Positions 38,314-59,868 of a stretch of DNA of 64,000 nucleotides are shown here, in pieces. Both the position numbers and the translations under genes were made by a program. The notes beneath the pieces were generated by a model. It had not been told where the DNA came from and made no database searches. It saw only the letters and a list, made by a program, of their open reading frames with translations. Where the stretch lies: contig NZ_PKMC01000001.1 of the NCBI RefSeq assembly GCF_002849225.1, positions 100,504-164,503 on the forward strand. Reading direction: 5' to 3'. Each line of letters starts with the position of its first letter. Within the stretch, counting starts at the first letter, position 1. Source of the DNA: Actinomyces sp. UMB0138 (GTDB lineage: Bacteria > Bacillota > Negativicutes > Veillonellales > Veillonellaceae).

Positions 38314-39218
38314 GATATGTTTCCCTTCATTTTGAGCAGATATGCATCGTCCAAGCTCGGTTCGACCTCAATGAAACCAGGCGCGGGTCTGTGTGTACTG
38401 ACTACGCGGTAGCGAGTCCCATCAACACCAGGCTCCTCCGCTACGATCTCAAAGTCTGAGTCGATACCCGCCAACGATACCATAGGTGGACTGACCCAAA
38501 CATGTCCCGTTGCCGATTTTACCACGTCTGAGAGTGTTCCGCTGTGTATAATTGACCCAGAACGCATGAAAAGAATGTAGTTACAGGTACTAGATACGTC
38601 ATCCAGTATATGGGTTGATAATAGGACGGTACGATCCTTGGCAAACCTGGATAGTAGACGACGGAATCGCATCCGTTCTTCTGGATCCAATCCTGCCGTT
38701 GGTTCATCTACGATCAAGAATTCTGGGTCGCCGATCAGGGCTTGGGCGATGCCAAGCCTTCGCGTCATGCCGCCGGAGAGGGAACCTGCCCGTTGATTCT
38801 TTGATTCGAGTAGCGAGACCTCCTCCAGAAGAGACTCGAGGTAGGACTTTGACGTAGCAAGATCGTTGCGCTTCTTCAGATAGCAAATATACTTTAAAGC
38901 TTCGAGAACCGTCAATTGCCGGCTGAATCCTATGTTTTGAGGGAGGTATCCCAATTTGGATTTGAAACGAGCACTCCCTCGTCTGTCATCGATACGCTCA
39001 TTTCCGTGTGTGATATAGCCTGAGGTGGGCTTATAAATACCACATAGCAACCGCATGAGCGTAGTTTTTCCTGCGCCGTTGGGTCCAAGGAGACCGACTA
39101 TCCCGTGGGGAATTGCCTCGCTGATATTGCAAATAACTTCTCCGCGCCCCGGAAAACTTTTCGATACTTCGTGGAGGGTGACCGAGGTATTCGTCTGCTT
39201 GTTATCTTCTTCGCTCAT
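38310..39218 (-). CDS. Lantibiotic immunity ABC transporter ATP-binding protein (LanF-like)
   Basis: The 302-residue ATPase has Walker A GPNGAGKTT (near residue 46), Q-loop YLPQNIG, signature SLSGGMTRRLGIA (near 142), Walker B EFLIVDEPTAGLDP (near 165) and switch STHILDD. The C-terminal ~80 residues are an accessory domain. With the two ABC-2 permeases encoded just upstream it should form a LanFEG-type exporter that expels the lantibiotic from the membrane. The start overlaps the upstream permease by four bases. Confidence 0.85.
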   Translation of the reverse strand: MSEEDNKQTNTSVTLHEVSKSFPGRGEVICNISEAIPHGIVGLLGPNGAGKTTLMRLLCGIYKPTSGYITHGNERIDDRRGSARFKSKLGYLPQNIGFSRQLTVLEALKYICYLKKRNDLATSKSYLESLLEEVSLLESKNQRAGSLSGGMTRRLGIAQALIGDPEFLIVDEPTAGLDPEERMRFRRLLSRFAKDRTVLLSTHILDDVSSTCNYILFMRSGSIIHSGTLSDVVKSATGHVWVSPPMVSLAGIDSDFEIVAEEPGVDGTRYRVVSTHRPAPGFIEVEPSLDDAYLLKMKGNIS

Positions 39219-39973
39219 TTCAAAATCCTTCTTTTCATGTGTGCTGTGCTGATTCCAAATAGCAAAAAATGAACTATTGCGGTAACCACTACTATTAACG
39301 AGGTAACCGATAGTGAGCCATTTGAATGCGCGACTTCAAATATGGGTGTTGCTCCAAATAGGTACTCACAATACTGGTCACCCAATAGGCTAAAGTAAGT
39401 TCCATTGAGCGTCGGAAGTGGAACCGAGCCAGGCGTGAATACCATAATTCCCCACAGTGCAATGCTTGCAACGATGCCAAGAGTGCCGGTTACAAAAGAG
39501 GTTAGAAAAAACGCCACTAACACAGCTGAAATCAAGCCAGATCCGCCAATTAGAAAAATGGATCCGACAGTGACACTGACTTCCGCGCTTCCTTCGAAAA
39601 TCTGCCAGGTTGTTATCACCAATGAAATAATAAACGGCCAAAAAATAACGCTAATTACGGTAGAAGCTACTCGGGTAGCTACGGTCAAATAATACGATAG
39701 GGGTGAAGCAAGCTCAATTTCTGAAGAGCTGACTTCTGAGCCTAATTTCGATAAGGATGAGCCGCTAACGATGGCTAAGAACCCACCTAGCATAACGTAG
39801 GCTTGAAAAAAACGTAAGATGAATCTCGCGTCGGTGATCGGATACGAGCGCGGGGAGACCAGCGCAACTGCGAAAGCGATAATAGCAGCGACCAAGAAGC
39901 AGGTAATGAGTATTCTTTGGCGGCTATTTTTCTTTAGCTCAATTAAGAGGAGCATGCTGAAACTGCGCATCAT
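39215..39973 (-). CDS. ABC-2 type permease (LanE/LanG-like) 1
   Basis: The 252-residue protein has six hydrophobic helices and no catalytic motif. Its N-terminus (LIELKKNSRQRILI) is typical of ABC-2 permeases. Position directly before the ATPase and after a second permease supports a LanEFG immunity transporter. Sequence is too divergent to assign E or G. Confidence 0.8.
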   Translation of the reverse strand: MMRSFSMLLLIELKKNSRQRILITCFLVAAIIAFAVALVSPRSYPITDARFILRFFQAYVMLGGFLAIVSGSSLSKLGSEVSSSEIELASPLSYYLTVATRVASTVISVIFWPFIISLVITTWQIFEGSAEVSVTVGSIFLIGGSGLISAVLVAFFLTSFVTGTLGIVASIALWGIMVFTPGSVPLPTLNGTYFSLLGDQYCEYLFGATPIFEVAHSNGSLSVTSLIVVVTAIVHFLLFGISTAHMKRRILK

Positions 39974-40591
39974 TTACTCCTGCCCTTCCATCGCCATTAG
40001 TATCTTCCCGTCCTCCACGCGTCTGAACGCAGCTATAGATAGACAAAGTAGTATCGATAGTGGGATTAGGCGGGCGATTAGGAAAGATTGAAAGTAGGGA
40101 TCAATTAGAAATGTCAACCCTATCCACACTATAACAACCGTAAGAATTGCTACTTTTGGAGTGGACCCTAAAAGCATGGTGAACATCCCGCTAAGAGCAA
40201 CTATAACCACGCCTGACGAGAACTGAATCAGTGTATCGATCCCCCGGTCTCGTGGCCATCCGCTCGATAAAGACAATGAGAAATACAGAACGACTACGAA
40301 GACAATGGAGTTCGCAAGAAGAATGATAAAACGCTTTATCAACTCGTCTTTCAAGCCCATTACACTAGCTGCCACTATCTCAGGCGTATCCAGATTGGCG
40401 GTACCGGACACTGCAAGTACGCCCAGAGTAAGCGGAAGAAAAGATACGAGCGCGAGCGTTATCATGAATGCAATGGTTCGCGGGGCTGTATAGTAGGCTA
40501 AGACGGACAGAAGACCGCATGACATAACTACAGCGATTTCTATAGCCAATGTACTCCGAATGGAATTTACATGTTGCAGAATTGCGATCAT
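39974..40591 (-). CDS. ABC-2 type permease (LanE/LanG-like) 2
   Basis: The 205-residue protein has six hydrophobic helices with short loops and a Glu/Lys-containing cytoplasmic loop (GLKDELIKRFI). It ends exactly one base before the next permease start and overlaps the preceding gene by four bases. It is shorter than its partner. The two presumably form the heterodimeric membrane part of the immunity exporter. Confidence 0.75.
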   Translation of the reverse strand: MIAILQHVNSIRSTLAIEIAVVMSCGLLSVLAYYTAPRTIAFMITLALVSFLPLTLGVLAVSGTANLDTPEIVAASVMGLKDELIKRFIILLANSIVFVVVLYFSLSLSSGWPRDRGIDTLIQFSSGVVIVALSGMFTMLLGSTPKVAILTVVIVWIGLTFLIDPYFQSFLIARLIPLSILLCLSIAAFRRVEDGKILMAMEGQE

Positions 40592-41457
40592 TTGACCCCT
40601 TTCATTTTTCTGTCAGATGCAATGCGAAGTAGTTCCCTGGACAACAATACAGCAGCAAGACACTGATGGTATATGTTTGGGTCAAGATCGTTATCTGAAT
40701 CCTGCCGAGCTCGTTGACATTTCTCTTCGTTAAGTTTTAATGAAGCCAAGTTATGAACCCGAGTGTCGTTTAATTTCGGACTCCCAATGGTATTTGCTAA
40801 ATATAGATAACTCGCCAACAATTCCAAAAGTAAATCCAGTGAGGCATCAAGCTCCCGAGCATCAATACAACGGCAGATAAAATCAAATAACTCTTCGCAC
40901 GAATGCTGCGACAATCTAGCATTGCTACTGAAAAATCTCGTGCTATATAGAACGACATGCGTGGCAGTATATCCCGATAGGTCAGACTTGATCGATTTAC
41001 TTATGAGCTGATCAACTACTTTATTGTAGCCCGCGATTGCCATTTTCGTGTCTAACTCCTGAACGAAAAATAATCTATCCAGGGTTGGGCTCGGCAGTTT
41101 GAATGACATAAGTTTTTGTTGTAGCGCATGTTTCTCCCCGGTCTTCTCAGAGAGATAAATATGAGCGAGCGTTGAGTATGGTTGTGTTGTTAGATAGTTT
41201 GGGGTAGCACAGTGGAGCTCGGTCAACCCGGATAGTAGCTTCCTGTATGTCGGCTCAAATGCCATCTCCGACCGCAGCCCTGCAAGGACATATGAGGCCT
41301 CATTGAGAGGACCGTCAGGAAATGCTGCTCGTGTCGAACCGTTTTTCCACACTCGTGGAGAGAATAAATAAACATGCTTGTTCATCCACTCGATACGCTC
41401 GACGAGATTTGCTTCGCGCTGAGGTATACGCTCAACTACTTCAACATTGATCAACAT
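40588..41457 (-). CDS. Unknown lanthipeptide-operon protein
   Basis: The 289-residue soluble protein has no motif I can name with confidence. It is helical, with WMNKHVYLFSPRVW near residue 25 and an ELDTKMAIAGY segment near residue 135 that faintly recalls DUF6895-type proteins of other peptide clusters. It overlaps lanD by 17 bases and the permease by four, so it is certainly co-expressed. Its place between modifying enzymes and transporters is where NAI-107 and planosporicin clusters carry extra proteins of unclear function. Confidence 0.6.
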   Translation of the reverse strand: MLINVEVVERIPQREANLVERIEWMNKHVYLFSPRVWKNGSTRAAFPDGPLNEASYVLAGLRSEMAFEPTYRKLLSGLTELHCATPNYLTTQPYSTLAHIYLSEKTGEKHALQQKLMSFKLPSPTLDRLFFVQELDTKMAIAGYNKVVDQLISKSIKSDLSGYTATHVVLYSTRFFSSNARLSQHSCEELFDFICRCIDARELDASLDLLLELLASYLYLANTIGSPKLNDTRVHNLASLKLNEEKCQRARQDSDNDLDPNIYHQCLAAVLLSRELLRIASDRKMKGVK

Positions 41458-42049
41458 CAGCCTCTCCTTTGAATGACAAATAAAGAGACGTTAATATATC
41501 GGTCGTTGTTGCCATTGATATTTCTTGTTTGATCTTGCGACTGGCGCCTTCGTACGCCTTGCTGCGATGGGGCTGAACCACTATGTGACCATCGGTAATT
41601 AGTGTCGACACATTTCGCTGCACCGGTGGAGCAGACCACATCCTCGAGTTCATTGCGGGTGCGATAATGACAGGTGGCGTCATAGCCAGGTGAAGTAATT
41701 CAAGACTGTTTCCAGCAGCGCCTATCGCTGCCTGGGATAAGAAGTGTGCCGTTGCAGGCGCCACCACAAGACGATCGTAGTCACGCACAATTTGCACATG
41801 GTTCCGATCAGGTGTTATCTGATTTATCACCTCATCTGCAACACATGATAGAGAATACTCTGATGTCATCTTCGCAGCGGTTGGAGTCAGTGCAACCCCG
41901 ATCTTGGCGACACCAATTTCTTTAAATGCGAATATCAAATCCGGTAACGAAAGACACTGCAGAGCCCCTGATGCGCCCAGTAGGAGACGTTTGCCACGAA
42001 TTATTTCAAGATCAGTCTGTTCCAAAGCAGCTCCTCCATATTCCCTCAC
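41441..42049 (-). CDS. lanD: LanD flavoprotein, peptidyl-cysteine decarboxylase
   Basis: LanD oxidatively decarboxylates the C-terminal Cys to an enethiol used for the S-aminovinyl-cysteine ring. The 202-residue protein is an HFCD flavoprotein: phosphate loop LLLGASGAL near residue 22, APATAHFLSQ near 103 and the substrate-recognition motif PAMNSRMW near residue 131. The matching substrate feature, two terminal Cys after Ser-Trp, is present in the precursor. The gene overlaps lanC by 38 bases; a later start is possible, since the first ~18 residues precede the fold. Confidence 0.92.
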   Translation of the reverse strand: MREYGGAALEQTDLEIIRGKRLLLGASGALQCLSLPDLIFAFKEIGVAKIGVALTPTAAKMTSEYSLSCVADEVINQITPDRNHVQIVRDYDRLVVAPATAHFLSQAAIGAAGNSLELLHLAMTPPVIIAPAMNSRMWSAPPVQRNVSTLITDGHIVVQPHRSKAYEGASRKIKQEISMATTTDILTSLYLSFKGEADVDQC

Positions 42050-43367
42050 TGATAGAGCCAGTTACGGATTCGTAAAGGAGCGCTATTCCCGAACTTCCTT
42101 CTAGCAAACCGACAGAGTTAATTTTCCGGTAGCTCTGGGCGTCTCTCCAACCATTTTTGCTATCTGGCATCCAATGTCGGAATCCAAAAGGCGAATCCGT
42201 TTCATAAAATTGTTCCCATAAAATGTTGATAGCCTTGTCACGTTGTGACCTAAAGACATTGTTATTAGTCCACTTCCAAAATCGGTCTAGAACCATAGCG
42301 AGTCCACCATAACCGTGACATAAAGTTGGTCCGTCTAGATTGTAAGCGTCTCGTGGTGCGCTTAGATGGGATAGCAGGAGCGTTTCCGCACTGGCCGATA
42401 AATCCATTCGGTTAACGACCCTGCCTACTTGGTAGATTGCGCAAGATACCCCCGGAGTCCCGTAGCACCAGGCTGCTCTGGTGTCTTTTGATTTTTCAAG
42501 CTGGATCGCGTTGTCGTCGCCTATGTATAACCTAGCGGGAAACGCTCTATAGGTATCCCTGGGGGTAGCAGACTCTATCGTTATTTCGTAAGACCTGAGC
42601 ATGTCGGCCACGCGGAGCATGTGATCTATAAACTCTGAGCCTGATCTGAGCTCGTTGAACTCCACGTAGTGAGCCAAATAAGCCAAGACGCCAGCAATTC
42701 CATGCGCCATGCCAAGATTTGCATCTCCATAGGGATACATTTGTTTATCTAGCTCGGTTGGCTCATTCTCGGGTGGAATTGACCAACTAGGTCGAGCTAA
42801 TAAATCCTTGCTTGGGACACACACACGGGAAGTTAAGTACCGAGCTATAGCCTGGGCAACTTTTGCTGCTTCCTGGTCACGGCATTTAAGCAGTTGCATA
42901 GCTACGCTGCTAAGTCCGTTCATTATATCGTAAGACTCCCAAGACAAAGAGCTAGGATCTCTTTCACATAACTGAAGTAGTCTAAAGCTGTCAGAAACCA
43001 GCTTAGTTATGATGTTCTCTCTTAAAGTTTTATATCCTCTGACGCCCGCGCCCTGAGCCACATTTAGAACGTATAGGACACCACTGAGCCCGCTCATCGT
43101 GCCGATTCCAGCAAAACTCTTTGCTTCGATCGCCTCAACGAGATACTTGTGAGCGTAGTTGATTAGAGATTTGTCCTGATGAGAAAGAGCAAACAAAACT
43201 GTCGAAGCCCCGAGCAGTCCATTAGCCAAAGAAGACGGTTGCCACATGGAATATTCGAACACCGGATCCCTATTTGCACTGTCTGCACACAATCTCTTAG
43301 TGTTCGCGATATCAGTTAGAGATGTGAGGTACCTGTCTAGATATGTGTCAAAATTCGGAAAAGTCAT
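42012..43367 (-). CDS. lanC: LanC lanthionine cyclase
   Basis: LanC adds Cys thiols to dehydrated Ser and Thr residues. The 451-residue protein has the seven-fold GxxG barrel repeats and the zinc site: Cys in AWCYGTPG (near residue 299) and Cys-His in LCHGYGG (near 350), plus the proton-relay His in GMAHGIAG (near 222). Length is typical. The start overlaps the lanB stop as ATGA. Confidence 0.95.
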   Translation of the reverse strand: MTFPNFDTYLDRYLTSLTDIANTKRLCADSANRDPVFEYSMWQPSSLANGLLGASTVLFALSHQDKSLINYAHKYLVEAIEAKSFAGIGTMSGLSGVLYVLNVAQGAGVRGYKTLRENIITKLVSDSFRLLQLCERDPSSLSWESYDIMNGLSSVAMQLLKCRDQEAAKVAQAIARYLTSRVCVPSKDLLARPSWSIPPENEPTELDKQMYPYGDANLGMAHGIAGVLAYLAHYVEFNELRSGSEFIDHMLRVADMLRSYEITIESATPRDTYRAFPARLYIGDDNAIQLEKSKDTRAAWCYGTPGVSCAIYQVGRVVNRMDLSASAETLLLSHLSAPRDAYNLDGPTLCHGYGGLAMVLDRFWKWTNNNVFRSQRDKAINILWEQFYETDSPFGFRHWMPDSKNGWRDAQSYRKINSVGLLEGSSGIALLYESVTGSISEGIWRSCFGTD

Positions 43368-46300
43368 GATTTCTGCCTTTCGAAGGCAAGCTGACGTCCT
43401 ACTGCTGCTTTCAACGATGAAACTAGATCTGCAAGACTTCTCGATTCATCATCTGGAGATATCCCGATAATCCTGTTGTGGCACATGTGAAGGTAGCTCG
43501 CGACTATGCGCGTCAGTGGGACATTTGATGTCATAGTCGTTGCTAAGTGATGACCGGCAGTGACGTAAGCTGTCGTCTTTTGAGCACTAAAACTTACAAA
43601 TGTTGTATCCGCCAACGCTAATGCTCTAGATGTCCATTCTTTACGATCTTCACGATAGTGGGCGGAATTTGGACCTCCGATTTTAATGGCTTCAAGCAGT
43701 TCAAGACTTGACTTACACAACTCAAGTTCCGTGGGAAAGCCACCTCGCAGCCCCCAAAGGAGACCGAACAAGCAATTTAGGTATTCTTCATGAAGAAATT
43801 CGAAGCGACGCTTTAAAGGCACTAGTGCCGCTTCGAGGGCGATGCGTGATTGTCGGTCAAAACAATCGTGAAGTAGGTCCTCTCTCGCGACGCAACCGTA
43901 CCGTTCGAGTTCTGGTCGATATGGGGCTAATACATACTCTTTTATCTTTCCCTGTTCAATTAAGTCCCGCATAAAGTCAGTGGCAAGCCCTTCCAGCATG
44001 TGCTCGCGTCCGGCCGTAGCGTGCATCCGTAATCTAAGATGAGATCCCTTTATATCCGAATATCGCGTAAAGAATGAGTACTTCAGTAATCCGTCGTTGC
44101 TTAACTTGCTGATAAAGCGTGCGATATCTTTGCTAAGCAACGAATCCATAACTTGCTTTTCACAATATATGTGAAAAGTCTGCCATTCTTCGCCGGGTAA
44201 ATACTCCTTCACGCTGCCGGTAGCGGTCTCGTTTACCGCTGTGATTTTCGGTTTTGCTACCGTTGATGCCGACGCTTCGAACACAATTTCATTTGTGAAG
44301 AAATTAGAATCATCATCACGCAGCCAACCGAAGCATTCTACAGGATCATGCGCTCCGTTAGGGAGTTCCTGCAGAACTAAGGATGGATCTCGGTCGATTT
44401 CCCGAGCTAGTATCTCGAGCCAGGTATCAATTTCGGTATCTATAAGAAATCGCATGTCCCGCGATACGGCGAAACAAAACCGGGGAACATTCCACTCTTG
44501 AATCCAGCTGCGTAAGTCTTCAATTTTGAGTTTCGACGACAGGTCTCTTAGCCTATCGAGCTCCCAAGTCATGGGCGAGAAGATTATACGCCCCAACCTA
44601 ACACGCGGATATCTACAAAATCCCTCAATTCCACTCCAATTCCAAGGCTCCCAAAGTCTGGAATGCTCAAGCGATAGCTCCAAAAGAAACCGGGCTATAT
44701 TAGATCCTTGATAGGCGAGGTTCACCGAATTAAATGACGTAAAGGACAGGGGTTCCTTAGTCCGTCTATGAAGGGCGTAGAAACCTGTCATGTCAGCGCC
44801 AATCAAGATGTCATTCACGGAGATAGTGTCGTTATCAGATTCATCCACCTTATCAAGATGGAGAGTTAGTGGATACGGTGATGGGCTATTTGTCAGGTTT
44901 CGTGCAGAGTTTGACCGAACTAAATGCCTGACGTCCACCAAACTGCCCTTAAAGTCGGAGTTGCACATCTCATGAACGCGTGTCTTGATGTCGTCAGGCA
45001 TCTGTGAGAAAAAGCGCCCTACGGAGGAGAAACGCATATGGTTACCCGGATTAAATCCACAGCTTAATGTGAAATGTCCTTCACAAATGTCGTCCATCGT
45101 TTCGGCGTTCAACGACATAAATAATTCAGCGCCAATTTGGCAGGCGGGAGCGCCTTTGCCAAAGTTGGATCCATCAAGGACCGTTCCACTCAGTTCCACT
45201 TCATCATCCTGGTTTCGCCACGCCGCTTCCAAAAGTTGAACGATATGCTTGTGATTCTCACTCTTTGGAGCATCCGTCTGTTTACTATCCGCAACCATAG
45301 TGCTAGGAGGACAAAGGTAGTGTTCAGGAGCACCAATTCCTAAGTTTGAGTCAAGCATCTCCTTTACAGGAATGAGGCGGTCTACACCGTATTTTTCGAG
45401 AAATGCCAAATGCAATTTCCGCAGGGATCTCATTCCTGTCGACGCTGTTCTCCAGCTCTGCATTACTCTTAGAGCAGTCTCGGCTTCTTTCCGTATAGAG
45501 TCCGGTAGCCGGTATGACGTCTCATCTACATATTGAACGTTAAGTACCGGATCTGTTATTTTTTCAGCCTCGACAAAATCACAGAGCTTATCTAACGATT
45601 TGACATCAAGGTTATCAAAACCTGTGATATCACGAGCGACGTCGCTGATAGTCTTGAGCGCATCAACATAACGTAACGCCTTTTTACTCTTAGGGGTGCC
45701 AAGCTTGTCAATAACGTAACGTGCTGGGTCTTGTCCGCCCGCATCGCAATCAAGATCGGTGCGCAATAGCGTGACATTTAAAAGTTGCTCAATATACCTT
45801 TCGGCTTCGGCAGTGGAACACTTCGCCTCTCTCACACATAGGCACACTAAATCGGATAAGGTTTGACGCCCACCAGAGATGAAATCATTACAGATCGAAG
45901 AGAGTAGTGGGGTTAGCGTTATAGATATTCGTTCTACAGCACCGCTAGACGAATTCGTCTTAACGATATGTATTGTACGGTTCAAAATAATTGCTTCAGG
46001 GTTTATGCTCACTCCGAGACCGGGAAAGTGTCGAACTAACTCTGCATTAGTAGGCATCATATTTTCAAGGCATCTGTAGTCGGTTTGCGCAACAATGCGC
46101 GCCCGACCGATCGACGGGTTAAACGTAGCGCCTTCACAGAAAACACCGGTGCCTACAAGACCGAAGGCTCCGTAAGGCGTAGGTCGAGAGCAATAACGTG
46201 AATAATAGCGCAGAAGAGCATGCACAAGCTTCTTTGTGGACCTCAAGCTAGCACCATGTAAGACGGTGTCATTTGCATTTTTCCAAGCTTGAGGAGCCGC

Positions 46301-46471
46301 ATGTTTCAACGCAGCTTCAAACTGTCGATCCTCAAGAAGGTCACTAATCAACTGTCTATGTGCATCCAGGTCTAAACCAAGATGCTGCAACCGTTGGCGA
46401 CGAAATTCTGTTAGGCTGCCGGAAGACCGACGTATGAAGAAGAATGGCGCAACAGTGAGTGAAGACTTCAT
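43364..46471 (-). CDS. lanB: LanB lanthipeptide dehydratase (full length)
   Basis: LanB dehydrates Ser and Thr in the precursor using glutamyl-tRNA. The 1035-residue single-chain protein has the N-terminal glutamylation domain (opening APFFFIRRSSGS, then RYYSRYCSRPTPYGAFGLVGTG) and, from about residue 760, the C-terminal elimination domain (WQTFHIYCEK, YSFFTRYSDIKGSHLRLRMH). It is therefore a full-length class I enzyme, not the split thiopeptide type. The ATG at 46471 has only a weak GGA upstream. It is separated from the precursor gene by an 83-base interval holding a strong hairpin. Confidence 0.94.
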   Translation of the reverse strand: MKSSLTVAPFFFIRRSSGSLTEFRRQRLQHLGLDLDAHRQLISDLLEDRQFEAALKHAAPQAWKNANDTVLHGASLRSTKKLVHALLRYYSRYCSRPTPYGAFGLVGTGVFCEGATFNPSIGRARIVAQTDYRCLENMMPTNAELVRHFPGLGVSINPEAIILNRTIHIVKTNSSSGAVERISITLTPLLSSICNDFISGGRQTLSDLVCLCVREAKCSTAEAERYIEQLLNVTLLRTDLDCDAGGQDPARYVIDKLGTPKSKKALRYVDALKTISDVARDITGFDNLDVKSLDKLCDFVEAEKITDPVLNVQYVDETSYRLPDSIRKEAETALRVMQSWRTASTGMRSLRKLHLAFLEKYGVDRLIPVKEMLDSNLGIGAPEHYLCPPSTMVADSKQTDAPKSENHKHIVQLLEAAWRNQDDEVELSGTVLDGSNFGKGAPACQIGAELFMSLNAETMDDICEGHFTLSCGFNPGNHMRFSSVGRFFSQMPDDIKTRVHEMCNSDFKGSLVDVRHLVRSNSARNLTNSPSPYPLTLHLDKVDESDNDTISVNDILIGADMTGFYALHRRTKEPLSFTSFNSVNLAYQGSNIARFLLELSLEHSRLWEPWNWSGIEGFCRYPRVRLGRIIFSPMTWELDRLRDLSSKLKIEDLRSWIQEWNVPRFCFAVSRDMRFLIDTEIDTWLEILAREIDRDPSLVLQELPNGAHDPVECFGWLRDDDSNFFTNEIVFEASASTVAKPKITAVNETATGSVKEYLPGEEWQTFHIYCEKQVMDSLLSKDIARFISKLSNDGLLKYSFFTRYSDIKGSHLRLRMHATAGREHMLEGLATDFMRDLIEQGKIKEYVLAPYRPELERYGCVAREDLLHDCFDRQSRIALEAALVPLKRRFEFLHEEYLNCLFGLLWGLRGGFPTELELCKSSLELLEAIKIGGPNSAHYREDRKEWTSRALALADTTFVSFSAQKTTAYVTAGHHLATTMTSNVPLTRIVASYLHMCHNRIIGISPDDESRSLADLVSSLKAAVGRQLAFERQKS

Positions 46472-46490
46472 GAGAGAATCCGGAAACTTA

Positions 46491-46538
46491 CTGCGGCACC
46501 CCTAGGAACAGCCAATCAACTACCCAAGGGCGCCGCAG
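46491..46538 (-). promoter_or_regulatory. Stem-loop between precursor gene and lanB
   Basis: An 11-bp stem with one G-T pair (46528-46538 with 46491-46501; arms CTGCGGCGCCC and GGGTGCCGCAG) encloses a 26-nt loop. No T-tract follows. Such a structure can act as a partial terminator or mRNA-stabilising element giving more precursor than enzyme, which is common in lantibiotic operons. Confidence 0.8.
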
Positions 46539-46554
46539 CAAGTTGCAACCAATG

Positions 46555-46701
46555 CTAACAGCACCAGCTGCAGAGGCTTCCGCCACCTTTGCTGGTACAA
46601 CCTGCGGTGCAGAGAATAAAGCTTGTGATAAGAGCCTCATCATCCGCTGTGACCAGGTCGTCAGTAGAGATATCAATGTCAAGTTCAAGTGCGGTCTCCA
46701 T
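46555..46701 (-). CDS. lanA: Lanthipeptide precursor, NAI-107/planosporicin-like
   Basis: This 48-codon gene was found by translating the interval upstream of lanB. It has an excellent site AAAGGAG 8 bases before the ATG. The 24-residue leader is acidic and contains ELDIDIS, comparable to the LDLDLS and LDLEIG boxes recognised by LanB. The 24-residue core begins Ile-Thr-Ser-Phe and ends Ser-Trp-Cys-Cys. Counting the core from Ile1, Ser3-Cys7, Thr8-Cys11, Ser13-Cys20, Ser18-Cys23 and Ser21-Cys24 occupy exactly the ring positions of microbisporicin and planosporicin, including the GGGS central loop (15-18). Differences from microbisporicin: Phe4, Ile5 (no Dha5), Ala9, Lys14, Leu19, Trp22. Cleavage before Ile1 follows from the alignment; one residue earlier is possible. 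Confidence 0.93.
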   Translation of the reverse strand: METALELDIDISTDDLVTADDEALITSFILCTAGCTSKGGGSLCSWCC

Positions 46702-47650: not shown

Positions 47651-47708
47651 GACGGGCATGGATCACGTATTACCTCTTTTTGTGGTGCGTGATCCTGCCC
47701 GTCTTTTT
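47651..47708 (+). terminator. Strong hairpin with T-tract before the prophage operon
   Basis: Arms at 47651-47667 and 47688-47703 pair over 16 bp with one bulged T, followed by TTTTT at 47704-47708. It ends about 55 bases before the first prophage gene. It could insulate the phage operon or act as an attenuator in its leader. Confidence 0.8.
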
Positions 47709-47762
47709 GTTTCTACGGACGGGCGGACTCTTGCGGATCCCTATTCCGACAGGAGAACGCCA

Positions 47763-48497
47763 ATGCGAAATCGCAAGACAGGGCAAAGCCCACACAATTC
47801 AAGCCCATCACTGACCATCCGCTTCAAGCATGAATCCGACCGTGGTGGTAACAAGTCCGAAACTGAAACCTACATCCTCAACCCGGACGACTTCGCGCTC
47901 ATGATCGAAAATGATCGCCGCGAACGCGCCCAGCAGGCTGGGAAATCTATCGAGGACATCAAGCCGCGCGATCCACAGGAAATCGTTGATGAACTGTGGA
48001 ATGCCGAAGAGAAGGTGAATCACGAGTTCCATCGCGGCGACCGAGGACCTGGTGCGAACAAATGCACCTGTGGCGCGGGCTGCGGTGAGCGTCGTGGATG
48101 CCGTCTTCCCTCAACTCACCCTTGGTCGCTGGATCAGATGCTCGAAATCGATAGTGATCCTACCACCTCAGGGCACACTCCAGAAGACGCCCTGATTGCC
48201 GCAGAGGAGTCTCGCAACCGTGCAGCTGATCTGGCGGCCATGTGGGCAGCTATCGCACAGCTAGGTGACCGGCATCAGCTTGTCGCTGAACTGATGGTTG
48301 AGCAGGGCATGAGCCAAGCCGATGTGGCCAGGCATCTGAATCTGTCGCGGGCTCGGGTTTCGCAATTGTTTCGCGAGGTAAAGACCGCAGTGATCGAGGC
48401 AGTTGAACAGTCGCGGCTTAACACTCCTGCGGTTCTCGGCAGTGGAGTGAGAGGGCCAGCCGATGAGGCAGGTCCCCAACCCAAGAAAGGCAGGTAA
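47763..48497 (+). CDS. Sigma-70 region 4-like phage regulator
   Basis: The 244-residue protein starts at ATG 47763 with AGGAG upstream; a reading from 47658 would run through the hairpin. The C-terminal half has a sigma region 4 helix-turn-helix (ELMVEQGMSQADVARHLNLSRARVSQLF, key part MSQADVARHL near residue 180). A Cys-rich stretch, CTCGAGCGERRGC, lies near residue 95. It is the first gene of the element and probably controls its early transcription; autonomous sigma activity is not certain. Confidence 0.7.
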   Translation: MRNRKTGQSPHNSSPSLTIRFKHESDRGGNKSETETYILNPDDFALMIENDRRERAQQAGKSIEDIKPRDPQEIVDELWNAEEKVNHEFHRGDRGPGANKCTCGAGCGERRGCRLPSTHPWSLDQMLEIDSDPTTSGHTPEDALIAAEESRNRAADLAAMWAAIAQLGDRHQLVAELMVEQGMSQADVARHLNLSRARVSQLFREVKTAVIEAVEQSRLNTPAVLGSGVRGPADEAGPQPKKGR

Positions 48498-48502: not shown

Positions 48503-48748
48503 ATGACCCAGCACAGGCTCAAGCTCCACATCGCCAAAGATATCCCGACCGATCCGGGAATCGTTGGCACCAAAATCGTAAAAATACGCGAACGAATAGC
48601 ACGAGTTTTATTTGGCGCTCCGCGCAGGATGATGATCATCGTCCCTGGCGACAGTGTTGACGAGATTAATATTAGTGAAAAACCCGATGACTCTTTGATG
48701 GCGTTAGCTGAAGCTGTCGGTGTGGTTAAAGGCGGTGAAGCGAAGTGA
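48503..48748 (+). CDS. Small phage protein of unknown function
   Basis: The 81-residue protein is not recognised. It begins MTQHRLKLHIAKDIP and is basic in the middle (RRMMIIVPGDSVDEI). It follows the regulator by 5 bases and its TGA overlaps the next GTG start, so it belongs to the phage early operon. Confidence 0.65.
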   Translation: MTQHRLKLHIAKDIPTDPGIVGTKIVKIRERIARVLFGAPRRMMIIVPGDSVDEINISEKPDDSLMALAEAVGVVKGGEAK

Positions 48749-49155
48749 ACATCACGCAAGCAAACAACGTTATTGCTGGCCTTAATCGTGTTGCCGAGCT
48801 GGTTACTAGCCTAGCGGCTGATGTGGAATCGGCTGCCTGGAAAGGCATCGAAGATCATGCCGGCATGCCAGGTGCGCGCCCTATTGCTGCTGCCCAGCTC
48901 GCTCAGCCATCCCTTGAGGCTGCAGCAGCTGAACATAACCAGGCGCAAGCAGAAGATTCGGCTCAGGTTAAAACTCCAGATTTAGCGCTTTCACTTGCGG
49001 ATGTACGCGCGGTTCTTTCTGATCTTTCCAGTCAAGGACTGACCAAGCAGGTACGTCAGCTGATTGTGGATGCGGGGGCTGATCGTCTCTCGGATGTAGA
49101 TCCAGCTAATTATGGATGGTTGCTTACGCGGGCGAAGGGACTTGCTGATGCCTGA
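48745..49155 (+). CDS. Phage protein of unknown function
   Basis: The 136-residue product starts at a GTG overlapping the previous stop. It is Ala-rich and helical, with an Ala/Gln-rich central linker and a C-terminal helical domain (LADVRAVLSDLSSQGLTKQ). No family is recognised. It overlaps the DUF2800 gene by 8 bases. Confidence 0.65.
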   Translation: MNITQANNVIAGLNRVAELVTSLAADVESAAWKGIEDHAGMPGARPIAAAQLAQPSLEAAAAEHNQAQAEDSAQVKTPDLALSLADVRAVLSDLSSQGLTKQVRQLIVDAGADRLSDVDPANYGWLLTRAKGLADA

Positions 49156-50275
49156 TCAACATGCCCTCTTATCGGCTTCTGGTGCGCACCGGTGGCTGAA
49201 TTGCCCGCCATCAGCCCTAGTGGAGGCCAGCTTGCCGGATTCTACTTCGGCTGCTGCCGAACAAGGCACCATCGCTCACGCGCTGGCGGAGTGGAAGTTA
49301 CGTCGCGCCTTACACCTTTCACCAACCATGAAACCAGAGTCCACCTGGATTGATAGCGAGATGGAGGCTCTCACCGACGATTATCTTGCTTTTGTCCAAG
49401 AGCGCCTGCGTGAGGCGCGCAAGACGTGCAAGGATCCCGTGACGCTCATCGAGCAACGTCTTGATTACTCGCATCTCGTTCCTGGCGGGTTTGGCACCGG
49501 GGACTGCGTGATTATTGCCGAACCTTTGTTGCAGATTATTGATTTCAAGTACGGGCAAGGCGTACTGGTTGAGGCCGAGAAAAATCCGCAATTGATGTTG
49601 TATGCTCTCGGCGCGCTTCATGCTTTCGATACTCTTTACGAGATTAGCGAGGTTGCGGTGACGATTTTCCAGCCCAGACGATCCAACGTAGCGACCTGGC
49701 ATGTCAGCGTGACAGATCTTCAAACCTGGGCTGAAGAGGTTGTTCGACCAACAGCGAAGCTGGCCGGGAAAGGCGAAGGCTCTTTTGCCGCAGGTAGCTG
49801 GTGTCGTTTCTGCAAAATAGCCCCTACCTGCCGCACCAGAGCCGAAAAGAATCTGGAGCTAGCCAAACGCGAGTTCGCTCCCCCACCCCAACTCTCCGAT
49901 GCAGAGATTGCCCAGGTGCTCACGAAACTACCTGAGCTAAAGAGATGGGCATCCGATGTAGAGTCCTACGCACTGTCCCTTGCGGTCAATCAAGGCAAGA
50001 CCTGGGCCGGTTTCAAACTCGTCGAAGGCAGAAGTATCCGCAAATATGCCGACGAAACCAAAGTCGTGGAGACAGCCCAGGCTGCCGGGATTAACGACAT
50101 TTTCGAGCGCAAGCTCAAGACGATTACGGCGTTAGAGAAACAGCTGGGTAAGCGGCGCTTTGGCGAACTCCTTGGAGATTTGGTTATCAAGCCGCCCGGT
50201 AAACCTGCACTGGTACCTGAAACCGATAAACGACCCGCGATAGCACTCAGCGCGGCTGAAGAATTTAAAAAATAA
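49148..50275 (+). CDS. DUF2800 phage nuclease-like protein (PD-(D/E)XK)
   Basis: The 375-residue protein starts MPDQHALLSASGAHRWLNCPPS, typical of DUF2800 and Cas4/RecB-like nucleases. Active-site-like residues are the Asp in FGTGDCVI, DFKYGQG (near residue 142) and Gln in NPQLMLYALG. Three Cys in WCRFCKIAPTC with an early Cys may bind an Fe-S cluster. In phages this gene precedes the ssDNA-binding protein and DNA polymerase and probably acts in replication or recombination. Confidence 0.85.
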   Translation: MPDQHALLSASGAHRWLNCPPSALVEASLPDSTSAAAEQGTIAHALAEWKLRRALHLSPTMKPESTWIDSEMEALTDDYLAFVQERLREARKTCKDPVTLIEQRLDYSHLVPGGFGTGDCVIIAEPLLQIIDFKYGQGVLVEAEKNPQLMLYALGALHAFDTLYEISEVAVTIFQPRRSNVATWHVSVTDLQTWAEEVVRPTAKLAGKGEGSFAAGSWCRFCKIAPTCRTRAEKNLELAKREFAPPPQLSDAEIAQVLTKLPELKRWASDVESYALSLAVNQGKTWAGFKLVEGRSIRKYADETKVVETAQAAGINDIFERKLKTITALEKQLGKRRFGELLGDLVIKPPGKPALVPETDKRPAIALSAAEEFKK

Positions 50276-50309
50276 AACCAAGAAAAATACAGAAAGTAGG
50301 TAAATAACC

Positions 50310-50864
50310 ATGTCAGTAAAGAATCCAACTCGAGTCATCACCGGCGAAGTACGTCTTTCGTACGCGAATCTTTTCGAGGCAAAATCCATCCAAGGATCAA
50401 AACCGAAATACTCCGTAAGCCTGATCATCCCGAAGTCTGACAAAGTGACGCTAGCGAAGATTGAGGCCGCTATCGACGCAGCCATTGAAGCAGGCACAGC
50501 CAAGTTCGGCGGTAAGCGACCTAACAAGGCTGCACTGAAGTTACCGTTGCGCGACGGGGATACAGAACGCGATGACGAAGCCTACGCGAACTCGATGTTT
50601 GTCAACGCTAACTCCACTACCCCACCTCAAGTGGTAGACGAGTCGCTCGCCCCAATCTTGGATCGCTCCCAGGTCTACTCAGGGTGCTACGCCCGCGCGA
50701 GCATTACCTTCTATGCCTTCAACACCAATGGCAATAAGGGAATCGCCTGCGGACTGGGCAACATCCAAAAAATTCGGGATGGTGAACCGCTCGGTGGCGG
50801 ACACGTCAGCGCTGAGGAAGACTTCGCTGCGTTTTCCACTGCTAACGAGGACTTCCTTAACTAG
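50310..50864 (+). CDS. DUF2815 phage single-strand DNA-binding-like protein
   Basis: The 184-residue protein opens with NPTRVITGEVRLSYANLFE and contains KYSVSLIIPKSD and the YARASITFYAFNTNGNKGIACGLGNIQKI region (read in pieces), which mark DUF2815. Family members are OB-fold ssDNA-binding proteins of phage replication modules. It lies between DUF2800 and the DNA polymerase. Confidence 0.88.
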   Translation: MSVKNPTRVITGEVRLSYANLFEAKSIQGSKPKYSVSLIIPKSDKVTLAKIEAAIDAAIEAGTAKFGGKRPNKAALKLPLRDGDTERDDEAYANSMFVNANSTTPPQVVDESLAPILDRSQVYSGCYARASITFYAFNTNGNKGIACGLGNIQKIRDGEPLGGGHVSAEEDFAAFSTANEDFLN

Positions 50865-50940
50865 CAGGTAAGTACATATTAGTGGTGGGCAGTAGCTGCA
50901 TGGTTGCTGCCCACCACACCTAATTTTGAAGGATAAAACC

Positions 50941-52911
50941 TTGAAATATCTAAGTATTGATCTGGAAACTTACAGCCCCCTCAATCTCTCCAAGACCGGG
51001 GTCTACCCCTACGCTGCCCACCCAGACTTCCAGATCCTCCTGTTCGGCTACGCCATAGACGAGCAGCCAGTGCAGGTGGTTGACCTGGCGAGCGGAGAAA
51101 AACTACCCAACGAAATACTTGCGGCTCTGGTGAACCCCGGGGTGGTTAAGTGGGCGTTCAACGCGTCCTTCGAACGCATCTGCCTCTCATCTTGGTTACA
51201 CCACTACCACCCAGAACTATTACCTCAAGAAAGTTTCCTGGATCCTGCTCAGTGGCGCTGCTCCATGATCTGGGCTGCATATCTTGGGATGCCAATGAGC
51301 CTAGACCAAGTAGCAAAAGTACTGAATTTACCAGTAAAGAAAGATGCAGCTGGTAAGAAACTGATCCGCCAGTTTTGCACCCCAGCGACCCCAAACCTGA
51401 TTAACAAGGGCGCGCGCCGCAATCTCCCTACCTTGGATCCGGAAGGCTGGCGGGCGTTTATCGAATACAACCGCCGTGATGTGGAGGTTGAACAAGCCAT
51501 CCACACCCGCCTGGCAAAGTTTCCCGTACCAGAGGCCGAATGGGAAGCCTATGCCTTGGATCAGCGCATTAACGATGCTGGGATCAAGCTCGATGCGACC
51601 CTGGTCGATGCCGCTGTAACTCTTGACGATAAACATCGCGAGGCTACTCTTGCTCGTGCCCGAGAGTTGACTGGTTTGGAGAATCCCAACTCGCCGATCC
51701 AGCTGAAAGAATGGCTCTCCACCCGTGGCTGCCATTTGGAGTCACTCGCAAAGGCTGAAGTCGAGACTGCCTTGGAGACCGCTACAGGGGTGGTGAAAGA
51801 AGTACTCGAGCTTCGCGGAGACCTAGCCAGGTCTTCGGTGAAGAAATATCAGGCGATGCAAAACGTAGCCGGCAACGATGGGCGGGCACGTGGGCTACTC
51901 CAGTTCTATGGTGCAGGACGAACCGGACGCTTCGCAGGACGACTCGTCCAAGTGCAGAATTTGCCACGCAATTATCTACCTGACCTCGATGAAGCTCGCG
52001 TTCTCGTGAGGTCCGGGAACCTGGAAGCGCTCGAGCTGCTCTACGAATCAGTACCCGACACGCTTTCCCAGCTGATCCGCACCGCCTTCATACCCAGCCC
52101 CGGCCACCGATTCATAGTGGCTGATTACAGCGCTATCGAAGCTCGCGTGATCGCCTGGCTCGCAGGTGAAGAATCCACCCTCGACGCGTTCCGTGAAGGT
52201 AAAGATCTATATTGCGAGACTGCTAGCCGAATGTTCGGGGTGCCGGTCGAAAAACACGGGATTAATGCTGGGCTGCGGCAGAAAGGGAAGATCGCAGTTT
52301 TGGCTTGCGGTTACGGTGGCTCTGTCGGCGCGCTCAAAGCAATGGGCGCGTTGCGCATGGGGCTAGCCGAGGACGAGCTCAAACCCATCGTGGACGCGTG
52401 GCGGGCAGCCAACCCGAACATTGTGTGGCTGTGGCAGGAAGTAGAAGAAGCAGCACTCGAAGCCCTTACCACTCGCAGACCAGTGCGGCTGCGCAACCTC
52501 ACCTTTACTCTTGAGTCTGGGATCTTGTTCATCACCTTGCCGTCTGGGCGCAGACTGGCGTATGTGAAACCGGGTCTTGGCGAGAATCGTTTTGGTGGCA
52601 CCTCGATCACCTACTGGGGTATCACCACGGGGCGCAGGTGGGGACGCCTGGAAACCTACGGTGGCAAACTCGTCGAGAATATCGTCCAGGCAGTCGCCCG
52701 CGACCTGCTTGTCAACGGTATGCAAATTATCGCCGGCCAGGGGCATCAGATCGTGATGCATGTCCACGACGAGGTCATCATCGACGAACCACTAAATTCC
52801 GGCTTCACCATCGAAGATGCCTGCCGACTCATGTCTAAGCTGCCGGTCTGGGCTGGCGGTTTGCCGCTCACGGCTGATGGATATGAATGCGACTACTACC
52901 GCAAAGATTAA
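50941..52911 (+). CDS. Phage family A DNA polymerase with 3'-5' exonuclease
   Basis: The 656-residue enzyme starts at a TTG at 50941 with AAGGA just upstream; an earlier TTG at 50926 lacks one. The exonuclease begins SIDLETYSP (Asp-x-Glu). The polymerase motifs are A (VADYSAIEARV, near 394), B (GLRQKGKIAVLACGYG, near 445) and C (MHVHDEVIIDE, near 606). It replicates the phage genome. A GC-rich hairpin lies at 50882-50917 just before the gene. Confidence 0.94.
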   Translation: MKYLSIDLETYSPLNLSKTGVYPYAAHPDFQILLFGYAIDEQPVQVVDLASGEKLPNEILAALVNPGVVKWAFNASFERICLSSWLHHYHPELLPQESFLDPAQWRCSMIWAAYLGMPMSLDQVAKVLNLPVKKDAAGKKLIRQFCTPATPNLINKGARRNLPTLDPEGWRAFIEYNRRDVEVEQAIHTRLAKFPVPEAEWEAYALDQRINDAGIKLDATLVDAAVTLDDKHREATLARARELTGLENPNSPIQLKEWLSTRGCHLESLAKAEVETALETATGVVKEVLELRGDLARSSVKKYQAMQNVAGNDGRARGLLQFYGAGRTGRFAGRLVQVQNLPRNYLPDLDEARVLVRSGNLEALELLYESVPDTLSQLIRTAFIPSPGHRFIVADYSAIEARVIAWLAGEESTLDAFREGKDLYCETASRMFGVPVEKHGINAGLRQKGKIAVLACGYGGSVGALKAMGALRMGLAEDELKPIVDAWRAANPNIVWLWQEVEEAALEALTTRRPVRLRNLTFTLESGILFITLPSGRRLAYVKPGLGENRFGGTSITYWGITTGRRWGRLETYGGKLVENIVQAVARDLLVNGMQIIAGQGHQIVMHVHDEVIIDEPLNSGFTIEDACRLMSKLPVWAGGLPLTADGYECDYYRKD

Positions 52912-53885
52912 ACGTCCGGGTTATTCCATAAAGACAACTGCTGCCAGCCCCCAGGCATGCCCATTTCTACTGTTGATCGAGATTCAAGGGGAAGGTATTC
53001 GGCCTCGATGAGATGACGGATTTTGTTCGGCCAACTGGTTCCCGGAGAAATCTGGCGCAACAGGAAAGACATGACCAGGATTGCACCGAAAAGACGGTCG
53101 CTTTGGCCTTTAGGAAGAGAGAAAAGATCGGTGATTGTACGCAACGCGTTCGTTGATGCAGGAGTGAGATACCTGTTCCATAACCTGCCATGGTGGGCAC
53201 ATATATTACGTAGCACCGTAAGCTGTTCACACCAGCGAGCCAAAGGATCTTGCCTATAGTAGCTGCCCTTCTGCTTAGCGGTGAGCCTATCTGGATCCAC
53301 GACCAGCCCTAGCGATTCAGAGATGGCGCGTTGATCGTCAAGCACCATCCCGTCAAAGAGCTGCGAAATATCCGAAAAATCGAGTGCTTCGACTAAAACC
53401 CAAATCGGATATTCACCATACTTGCTGGCATAGTGTTTTATCGCGGTATCACGTTTCTTTGCTCTTTCGACTCGGGCAAGCGCCGTATTACACCATGCGC
53501 TGTGTTCAAATTCCGGGCGGAAAACTGCAGGATCAAGGTAAGACAGCGCCCCTATGGAAGCTAACCGGTCACTGATTCTGGCGCGTAACGCCACTTCGAT
53601 GCGCTCCATACCATCGTGAATGAGGGTTCGAAGTTTGCGATCAAACTCATACAATCTCGCAATGTCACTAAACGATGTTTGCTGCTGGAATTTATCAAGA
53701 CGGTGAGGGTTCTTCGGATCAGCATCTGCGGGTAGCACACGGTAGGCATACCAGTAGCCAGAGAGCCGATAATACGACACGCTCGCCAGCCACTGGCGGG
53801 CAAGCGGCTCATCAACACTCATCCCGCGCTCACGCAAAATCTCAATCTGCTGATCAATGCTCGTTGCCGGTTTCAGAGCGCTCAC
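52908..53885 (-). CDS. Abi_2-type abortive infection protein (HEPN)
   Basis: The 325-residue protein matches AbiD/AbiF-like Abi_2 proteins: QQIEILRERGM near residue 13, SYYRLSGYWYAY near 40, LYEFDRKLRTLIHDGMERIE near 85 and the HEPN RNase motif RNICAHH near residues 223-230. Family members abort infection, probably by RNA cleavage. It lies on the opposite strand inside the replication module and overlaps the polymerase end, as expected for a cargo gene with its own promoter protecting the lysogen against other phages. Confidence 0.9.
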   Translation of the reverse strand: MSALKPATSIDQQIEILRERGMSVDEPLARQWLASVSYYRLSGYWYAYRVLPADADPKNPHRLDKFQQQTSFSDIARLYEFDRKLRTLIHDGMERIEVALRARISDRLASIGALSYLDPAVFRPEFEHSAWCNTALARVERAKKRDTAIKHYASKYGEYPIWVLVEALDFSDISQLFDGMVLDDQRAISESLGLVVDPDRLTAKQKGSYYRQDPLARWCEQLTVLRNICAHHGRLWNRYLTPASTNALRTITDLFSLPKGQSDRLFGAILVMSFLLRQISPGTSWPNKIRHLIEAEYLPLESRSTVEMGMPGGWQQLSLWNNPDV

Positions 53886-54140
53886 CTGCAGCCTCCTTTA
53901 GCAAAAAGAAATCCAGCCCGTCTGCGACCAAAAGTCACAGCGGGCTGAACGATTGATATCAGCGTACCACACGAACCCTGCGGGCGCCTAGCCGCTGAAA
54001 GACCGTTCCTTTGGGCTACCAGCGAAGCTGACAGAATTTAACACTTTTGGGTTCGTCGGCAGTCGTGTAGGAGCCCTTACTCTACTGCGCCGCCGGCGCA
54101 CCACTTTTCCTCTACCTGGGGCTCTCAGGAAGGAAGCCCT

Positions 54141-54913
54141 ATGGGTAACCAACTACAGGTATTCACCAACGAGACATTCGGCACGATCCGCACTATCCAA
54201 GAGGAAGAACGAATCCTGTTCTGCGGACGCGATATCGCGGCGGCACTTGGGTATGAGAATCCTGGTAAAGCGGTGCGGGATCATACTCGCCAGGATGGGG
54301 GTCCAAAACGTTACCCCATCATCGACGCCCTCGGACGCAGGCAAGAAGCCGTATTCATCACCGAAGGTGACGTCTACAGGCTTATCGTTTCCTCGAAACT
54401 GCCCGCAGCCCAACAGTTCGAGAGGTGGGTGTTCGATGAGGTGCTGCCTACTATTCGCCGCCACGGGGTTTACGCCATTGACCAGCTGTTAGATGACGAC
54501 GAGTTTCTTGAGCAGGCACTGGCGCATTTGCGTGCTGAGCGCACTAAACGCCTGATCGCCGAACAGCGGCTAGCCGAGGCAACACCGAAGATCTCCTACT
54601 ACGACATTGTGCTGCAATCCGAATCACTATTGAGTACTACGGAGATCGCGAAAGACTACGGGCTGTCAGCCAAGTGTCTCAACCAAATCCTGCGTGATGA
54701 AAAGATCCAGTTCCACCGCTCAGGCCGCTGGTTCCTCTACGCAGGCTACGCCCAGCGTGGCTATGCCCAATCCAAGACCCATGAATACGCGCCGGGCAAA
54801 ACCCGCACACACACATGTACTGGACCCAAACCGGGCGCCTGTTCATCTACGACCTGCTGAAAAACCGCTTCGGGATCCTGCCGGTCATCGAACGCGAAGA
54901 CCGGGAGAACTAG
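54141..54913 (+). pseudogene. Phage antirepressor (BRO-N plus KilAC) with frameshift at a CA repeat
   Basis: The N-terminal BRO domain (LFCGRDIAAALGYENPGKAVRDH, key part near residues 27-45, and ERWVFDEVLPTIRRHG) is intact, and KilAC begins near SLLSTTEIAKDYG. At (CA)5, 54806-54815, the frame shifts: the original frame stops at 54858-54860. The family's C-terminal WTQTGRLFIYDLL segment continues in another frame to a TAG at 54911-54913. Deleting one CA restores a contiguous product. Two-base slippage, phase variation or a sequencing error could explain it. Confidence 0.82.
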
Positions 54914-54915
54914 CG

Positions 54916-57614: not shown

Positions 57615-57625
57615 AACCAGCCGAG

Positions 57626-57729
57626 GGTGCAGACCGGTGCAGACCGTATAGCAACTTTCTCTATAGGGAAAAATTTTAATAAAAATAGCTATAGGGAAAG
57701 TATGGATTGACCCTGCACCGGTCTGCACC
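57626..57729. repeat. Inverted and direct repeats between primase and VRR-NUC
   Basis: GGTGCAGACCGGTGCA at 57626-57641 has a perfect inverted copy at 57714-57729. GGTGCAGACC is tandemly repeated at 57626-57645. The A+T-rich middle contains CTATAGGGAAA twice (57661-57671 and 57689-57699, 28 bases apart). This architecture, next to the primase gene, fits a phage replication origin or a regulatory node. Confidence 0.75.
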
Positions 57730-57753
57730 TCCAACCACAAGAGGTGAAGACCA

Positions 57754-59841: not shown

Positions 59842-59851
59842 CTTGCACCCA

Positions 59852-59868
59852 TGCGTTAGCGAGTATCC
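59852..59868. repeat. 17-bp repeat shared with 34942-34958
   Basis: TGCGTTAGCGAGTATCC is the exact reverse complement of 34942-34958, which contains the CGCTAACGCA unit. The pair links prophage DNA with the island left of the lanthipeptide operon. Confidence 0.85.

Follow-up and report, generated by a model that had tools for sequence, protein, structure and literature searches.

The window, by which we mean the whole 64-kb stretch of DNA analyzed here, contains a lantibiotic operon on the minus strand. The operon consists of lanA and ten further genes, running from LanB to a 225-aa protein of no known family. All eleven frames are open, and nine of the ten gene junctions overlap, abut, or are 9 bases apart. 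The features are as follows.

46555..46701, minus strand: LanA precursor with a 24-aa leader and a 24-aa core (PF02052 and family comparisons)
46475..46556, minus strand: long hairpin between lanA and lanB, a likely attenuator or processing hairpin (-46 kcal/mol, z -6.6)
43364..46471, minus strand: LanB dehydratase, 1035 aa, with both domains (PF04738, 302 bits; PF14028, 126 bits)
42012..43367, minus strand: LanC cyclase with WCYG and CHG motifs (PF05147; matches to 8byk and NisC)
41441..42049, minus strand: LanD flavoprotein, the predicted Cys decarboxylase for a C-terminal aminovinyl-cysteine (PF02441)
40588..41457, minus strand: DUF6895 protein (PF21836)
39974..40591, minus strand: ABC permease 1 of a likely immunity transporter (six hydrophobic segments; no Pfam match)
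39215..39973, minus strand: ABC permease 2 (six hydrophobic segments; 23-25% identity to counterparts; no Pfam match)
38310..39218, minus strand: ABC ATPase of the likely immunity transporter (PF00005)
37936..38313, minus strand: likely immunity lipoprotein of the MlbQ type with lipobox LSAC (2mvo match; similar to counterparts)
36162..37946, minus strand: ABC exporter, likely LanT, with no peptidase domain matched (PF00664 and PF00005)
35475..36152, minus strand: last operon gene, 225 aa (no Pfam or PHROG match)

The lanA product, 48 aa long, is a class I lantibiotic precursor made up of the leader METALELDIDISTDDLVTADDEAL and the core ITSFILCTAGCTSKGGGSLCSWCC, followed by a stop. It is preceded by AAAGGAGAAGGACAATG, in which a GGAG motif lies 7 nt 5' of the ATG, and LanB starts 83 bases downstream. 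The Pfam Gallidermin model (PF02052) matched LanA, queried without its start Met, at 25 bits against a cut-off of 21. A previous sequence-only reading had called a 48-codon gene upstream of LanB; its coordinates were exact, and the gene, on the minus strand, is a real precursor. The LanA of the window belongs to a public cluster of 2 sequences found on 16 contigs, which argues against an assembly artifact; we found no LanA match in plasmids. The core carries Ser or Thr and Cys at the ten ring positions of NAI-107/planosporicin class I cores, the GGGS stretch, and the Ser-x-Cys-Cys end. The ten core residues listed by that reading all occupy their positions in the translation.

We scanned reference-genome contigs (genome_contigs) with a degenerate core pattern and obtained 24 stretches (L105-L128). 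All 24 were NAI-107/planosporicin-type precursors with a stop directly after the core (L121 with one extra Cys), so the core pattern is not a chance one. Fourteen came from Streptomyces and two from Actinomycetaceae (Actinomyces ruminis and Actinobaculum sp. oral taxon 183). Together with G040, from the same genus as the Actinobaculum genome (G064), they make up 25 reference-genome relatives with 16 distinct cores. Of the ten ring positions, eight (two loosely) were built into the scan pattern and so forced on these relatives, as were Gly10, Gly15, and Gly17; Ser3, Thr12, Ser13, and Gly16 were not built in and never varied. In viral contigs (viral_contigs), the core pattern gave a single stretch, L129, which on translation was low-complexity Cys/Gly repeats and not a precursor.

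Compared with the 25 relatives, the window core is the sole carrier of Phe4, Ile5, Lys14, and Leu19. Position 5 is Ile in the window versus Ser in 25 of 25, and with Ile in place of Ser, the Dha5 of NAI-107 cannot form. The 22 planosporicin-type precursors among the scanned loci (from Streptomyces, Nocardia, Saccharopolyspora, and others) share the thioether pattern and the GGGS stretch with the window. However, all 22 have Pro9 and Ser5, and most have His22. The precursors of A. ruminis, Actinobaculum sp. oral taxon 183, and G040 have Ala or Gly at position 9 and Trp or Phe at position 22, but, unlike the window, they have Ser5. Of the variant residues singled out in the sequence-only reading, Ile5 and Lys14 depart from the 25 relatives, whereas Ala9 and Trp22 are common to relatives such as A. 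ruminis. We also compared the core with what we take to be the NAI-107 (microbisporicin; Microbispora) core. The two share their architecture, and the window has Ala9 for Pro, Ile5 for Ser (and hence no Dha5), Lys14, Leu19, and Trp22.

A profile search of 5.8 billion proteins returned 22 proteins, including the window's own. Nineteen of the other 21 had the full core; P0026 and P0027 did not. We had considered the loss of Ser5 to be peculiar to the window, but this was rejected, because 8 of the 19 full-core proteins, as read by eye, also lack Ser5 (P0009, P0011, P0012, P0017, P0020, P0021, P0024, and P0025, of which P0009 and P0011 share one core). Judging from these proteins, P0021 among them, the position-5 dehydroalanine has been lost repeatedly in this branch. 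P0021, a 48-aa precursor on a 10-kb public contig, is the closest over the full length (64%) and has the same leader type, with Phe5 rather than Ser. It differs from the window core by Val1, Tyr4, Gly9, Glu14, and Met19. In nisin, replacement of Dha5 by Ala or Ser is reported to keep activity (PMC6899958); thus, loss of Dha5 need not abolish function.

A separate search of 5.8 billion proteins found no entry but the window's own, which agrees with the earlier proposal of a new natural NAI-107/planosporicin member. Among the matches listed in the open literature (subscription papers and patents being outside its reach), we found no report of the window peptide, and the genome-mining papers that we searched inside named no NAI-107-type peptide. 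These results support, at the level of sequence, the assignment of the gene as the precursor of an NAI-107/planosporicin-type class I lantibiotic and as a natural variant not previously described.

The modification enzymes appear complete for a class I product: LanB and LanC are separate and full length, and the LanD gene and its motifs are present. The best solved relative of LanB is 5ehk (239 bits, versus 87 bits for NisB), which we take to be MibB, the NAI-107 dehydratase. The WCYG and CHG motifs of LanC are presumably its zinc ligands. The best solved relative of LanD is MrsD, and EpiD is among the 12 matched; its motifs HV.I, PATA, and MN..MW presumably form the catalytic site. The DUF6895 protein has a weak counterpart after LanD in A. 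ruminis (22% identity, E 0.004). We found no halogenase or P450 family among the 30 window proteins scanned with Pfam (those outside chromosomal 1-31 kb). NAI-107 proper uses a halogenase and a P450 for its chloro-Trp and hydroxy-Pro, and neither was matched in the scanned proteins. To our knowledge, planosporicin is also without both. The suggestion that the product would be a non-chlorinated analogue is consistent with an operon in which no halogenase was matched.

The operon also appears to encode the immunity functions usual for the family, an MlbQ-type lipoprotein and an ABC transporter. ABC permease 1 is 33% identical to its Actinobaculum counterpart. The ABC ATPase is 43% identical to the A. 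ruminis and G040 counterparts and scored 134 bits with the galliderm_ABC model, which is under the cut-off of that model. The lipoprotein is 43-52% identical to its counterparts in three related clusters (A. ruminis, Actinobaculum, and G040). It matched 2mvo, presumably MlbQ, at E 0.012 alone and at E 4e-19 as a profile of 7 sequences (itself and six relatives). Its AlphaFold model has a mean pLDDT of 73. MlbQ is reported to confer NAI-107 resistance, and its structure was solved by NMR (PMC4828448).

NAI-107 and the window share LanB, LanC, LanD, the MlbQ-type lipoprotein, and a hairpin after lanA. None of 200 shuffles was as stable as the window hairpin, and the loop downstream of mibA is termed a putative attenuator in PMC4973701. 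Unlike NAI-107, the window has no matched halogenase or P450 and no ECF sigma pair, and phage genes adjoin the operon. An ECF sigma/anti-sigma pair is usual, though not defining, in the NAI-107/planosporicin family. Our tblastn queries for it found no match in the window at E <= 1e-3, whereas the same queries matched three of three related clusters. No promoter was called 5' of lanA, and the promoter scan gave 6 sites versus 17.3 expected in shuffles. The MibX-type promoter GAACC-N13..17-GCTAC had no exact match in 33,000-48,500 and one loose match far from lanA. A TTGACT-N17-TACCCT sequence upstream of lanA, read by eye, is weak.

We built a LanB tree of 16 rows (11 of the 24 scan loci, the window, G040, and 3 plasmid LanBs). 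In it, the window LanB and those of A. ruminis, Actinobaculum sp. oral taxon 183, and G040 form a group supported at 100/100, but the window branch is long and its LanB is very divergent, at 27-29% identity to the nearest kin. These three clusters hold the closest LanBs to the window; unlike it, they own an ECF sigma/anti-sigma pair, and we noticed no phage genes in their ORF lists of 35-40 kb, read by eye. Against 394 genomes of the class, LanB gave 68 matches, the best at 136 bits, versus 344-368 bits for the Actinomycetaceae LanBs. A strict-pattern LanB search of genome_contigs and viral_contigs returned no relative; because relatives exist, we judged the patterns too strict. Among the 50,697 phage records of INPHARED, the window LanB, like its LanC, matched only two, Staphylococcus phage UPMK_1 and Streptococcus phage phi-SsuZKB4_rum, with LanB at only 20-27%. 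By our reading of the annotations, UPMK_1 holds a leukotoxin/lantibiotic island and phi-SsuZKB4_rum a Tn5252-type relaxase, and neither is a clear phage-cargo case.

The lipoprotein has closer kin in Corynebacterium belfantii (80%) and Corynebacterium sp. CCM 9204 (72%), the proteins P0004 and P0005, which suggests that its gene was transferred between families. It had no match in plasmids, phages, or viral_contigs. Separately, we found MlbQ-type lipoproteins in 14 of 396 Actinomycetales genomes. In 12 of these regions (L167-L178, from 12 Actinomycetales genomes), the lipoprotein lies beside an ABC ATPase in every case, with an ECF sigma gene nearby. An anti-sigma was matched in 10 of the 12, and LanA, LanB, and LanC were matched in none. 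The A. ruminis LanB had no match anywhere in 13 of the 14 lipoprotein-bearing genomes. On sequence, these loci look like stand-alone immunity modules in non-producers. Such modules in LanB-less genomes suggest that encounters with NAI-107-type antibiotics are frequent enough for protection to be selected.

The operon lies beyond a breakpoint with a near-identical chromosome and is followed by phage genes.

34967..35016, no strand: left junction of the insertion, near-palindromic; G001 identity ends at 34992
47658..48497, plus strand: phage early gene, sigma-70 region 4 (PF04545)
48745..61349, plus strand: phage replication module up to the small terminase, colinear with IMG/VR L025
52908-53885, minus strand: Abi_2-like gene (Pfam) inside the replication module, opposite to its neighbors
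61691..63998, plus strand: SAM synthetase, then an open-ended ParB/DNA-methylase-like ORF at the window edge

By blastn, window positions 1-34992 align with genome G001 as two contiguous pieces (99.97% identity). We take the host family, Actinomycetaceae, from G001, which is of the same family as the Actinobaculum genome G064. The match breaks off at 34992/34993, a point that in G001 lies four bases inside the 3' end of the tRNA-Thr(TGT) gene (L013:14989-15064), and past this point the G001 chromosome continues with ordinary genes. Region 34993-47657 had no DNA match in G001 or in the same-genus genomes G028 and G057; comparable DNA queries matched in other searches. Consequently, no host-genome (G001) DNA was matched between the insertion point and the phage genes. 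LanB is absent from G001, as is the MlbQ-type lipoprotein, for which the eight genomes searched held no positive control and the query matched 14 of 396 elsewhere. The junction forms a perfect inverted repeat of 12 bp, one half of which belongs to the chromosome and the other to the insertion; none of 300 single-letter shuffles reached it. We rejected the idea of a general repeat: the exact junction 13-mer ACTTATCAAATCC has a single copy in each of G001 and G028 and none in G057. With up to 3 mismatches, similar half-sites occur in a few loci, one of them just after the tRNA-Gly gene of G001, and the repeat may be a tRNA-flank repeat. The insertion, relative to a near-identical chromosome, lies at a site with a recombination signature. 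Within the 64-kb window the left end alone is seen, and no tRNA was found there; the right end, the intact tRNA-Thr gene, and the integrase would lie beyond it. The sequence-only reading was right about the lantibiotic precursor gene but had overlooked the tRNA-Thr insertion and the adjoining phage genes.

The phage replication and packaging genes are colinear with recognized prophages. Region 48680-60368 is colinear with IMG/VR prophage L025 at 92% DNA identity, and the window phage genes are more distantly colinear with many others, including G001's own prophage at about 70%. Twelve of the 25 related records have a gene similar to the sigma-70 region 4 gene ahead of the exonuclease gene. The SAM synthetase gene (61691-62881) is next to the terminase, and the SAM synthetase/ParB region has similar DNA (71%) in G001's prophage; the ParB/DNA-methylase-like name of the open-ended ORF was read by eye without a family scan. 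Perhaps the SAM synthetase feeds phage DNA methylation. By eye, the Abi_2-like gene has a possible counterpart in G001's prophage.

In related prophages, the position upstream of the early genes is a slot for variable cargo. We tested one protein per locus at 20 related prophage loci and found PADLOC defense proteins in 13 (E <= 1e-25), with no match in the other seven; the 20 include several near-duplicates, and the 13 therefore do not count as independent events. Five of the 25 related records (L034, L038, L040, L042, and L043) were omitted from this test, having at most 1.4 kb upstream, and the pooled cargo scan took 66 of the 79 upstream ORFs. The slot contents include Lamassu, type I and type III restriction-modification, and other systems. 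At the left ends of L025-L048 and L092, we also observed that a single slot is occupied by differing genes of the Lamassu, restriction-modification, and ABC-3C kinds. In G001's prophage, the same slot holds an ORF that is divergent from the phage genes and whose beginning resembles that of the L033 type III methylase ORF. Serine recombinases scored over the cut-off in 17 of the 25 related records. In 16 of these 17 (coordinates by eye), the recombinase is on the late-gene side; G226 is the exception, and G215 has a pair on either side. G001's prophage has two adjacent frames at its late-gene end that we read by eye as recombinases.

The sequence thus establishes the precursor, its operon, the insertion point, and phage genes on the same non-chromosomal stretch, and from their position we infer prophage-cargo status. 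We consider it probable, judging from gene content and arrangement, that the precursor gene heads a biosynthesis, export, and immunity operon carried as prophage cargo inserted at the tRNA-Thr gene. We lean, with less assurance, toward a fuller picture: a temperate phage carrying an entire NAI-107-class operon in the slot where its sister phages keep anti-phage systems, a lysogen that is a producer dependent on prophage immunity, and a peptide that is an NAI-107 redesign without Dha5 and Pro9. The divergence of LanB, the Ile5 departure, the absent ECF pair, and the lack of a called lanA promoter count against the probable reading as a whole, that of an NAI-107-type operon carried as prophage cargo. 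Among the matches listed in the open literature, again short of subscription papers and patents, we found no report of an NAI-107-type cluster on a prophage.

It is unlikely, in our estimation, that the operon is a separate genomic island at the tRNA-Thr site, with the phage genes belonging to another prophage inserted alongside. The GC content of the operon (47.0%) is unlike that of the phage genes (54.6%; chromosome, 56.3%), and the last operon gene matches no phage family. Because the right end, the intact tRNA-Thr gene, and the integrase lie beyond the window, there is room for two adjacent insertions. The operon proteins also had no tblastn match (E <= 1e-3) in 80 related IMG/VR loci, each of at most 22 kb and not whole prophages; on the cargo reading, this means that the cargo is rare or recent. 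However, family scans of the eleven operon proteins gave no match to an integrase, relaxase, or transposase; the window has no tRNA, and 34993-47657 contains no matched piece of G001. Moreover, the corresponding slot of related prophages is filled with unrelated cargo that frequently runs divergent from the early genes, and their serine recombinases are mostly at the late-gene end.

Two further explanations concern what the operon does. A cluster that is silent or decayed and retained solely as an immunity module would fit the missing regulator pair, the uncalled promoter, and the stand-alone immunity modules of other genera. We consider this improbable, since the eleven frames are open, the genes are tightly packed, the enzyme motifs are intact, and the lanA-lanB hairpin is strong. 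The occupation of the slot by defense proteins in 13 of 20 tested relatives, and reports of anti-phage class I lanthipeptides from defense islands of Actinomycetota (PMC12360287 and PMC12715929), raise the idea that the peptide acts inside the cell against other phages, as a "lanthiphage" type. According to PMC12360287, the reported anti-phage lanthipeptides are intracellular, whereas the genes here for an ABC exporter and an MlbQ-type lipoprotein suggest a toxic product that is secreted, and the core is of the NAI-107 antibiotic type. An intracellular anti-phage role therefore seems very improbable.

With the operon read as prophage cargo, we propose the following route to the product. LanB would dehydrate Thr2, Ser3, Thr8, Ser13, Ser18, and Ser21, leaving Thr12 unmodified (six dehydrations). 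LanC would close five thioether rings (3-7, 8-11, 13-20, 18-23, and 21-24), and oxidative decarboxylation of the C-terminal Cys by LanD would turn ring 21-24 into an aminovinyl-cysteine. The ABC exporter would secrete the peptide, and a host protease encoded elsewhere would cut the leader after Leu24. The mature product has a predicted monoisotopic mass of 2242.961 ([M+2H]2+ of 1122.49; 1113.48 if seven residues were dehydrated) and, from what is known of the family, would block lipid II. The lipoprotein and the ABC transporter would protect the lysogen, and because the immunity genes are on the prophage, a cell losing the prophage would lose protection. Sublancin 168 of SPbeta is a comparable case, with an antimicrobial peptide and an immunity gene on a prophage, for which selection for keeping the prophage has been argued (PMC6391423). 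It is, however, a glycocin and not a lanthipeptide, and it is from Bacillus.

Microbisporicin (NAI-107) has been described as the most potent antibacterial among known lantibiotics (PMC4539421). An Actinomycetaceae version without Dha5, Pro9, and an operon halogenase gene is a natural test of the need for those features. If the operon is phage cargo, antibiotic warfare would be linked to lysogeny, and phages of one group would exchange both defense systems and an antibiotic factory at a single slot. A weapon would then replace a shield, and a dormant virus would likely arm its host with a predicted cell-wall-blocking antibiotic.

Left of the junction, in DNA common to G001, we also observed a piece of a phage small terminase (phrog_83; 33018-33518, minus strand). 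It is 80% DNA-identical to part of the window's own terminase gene and is likely left over from an earlier prophage close to the tRNA-Thr gene.
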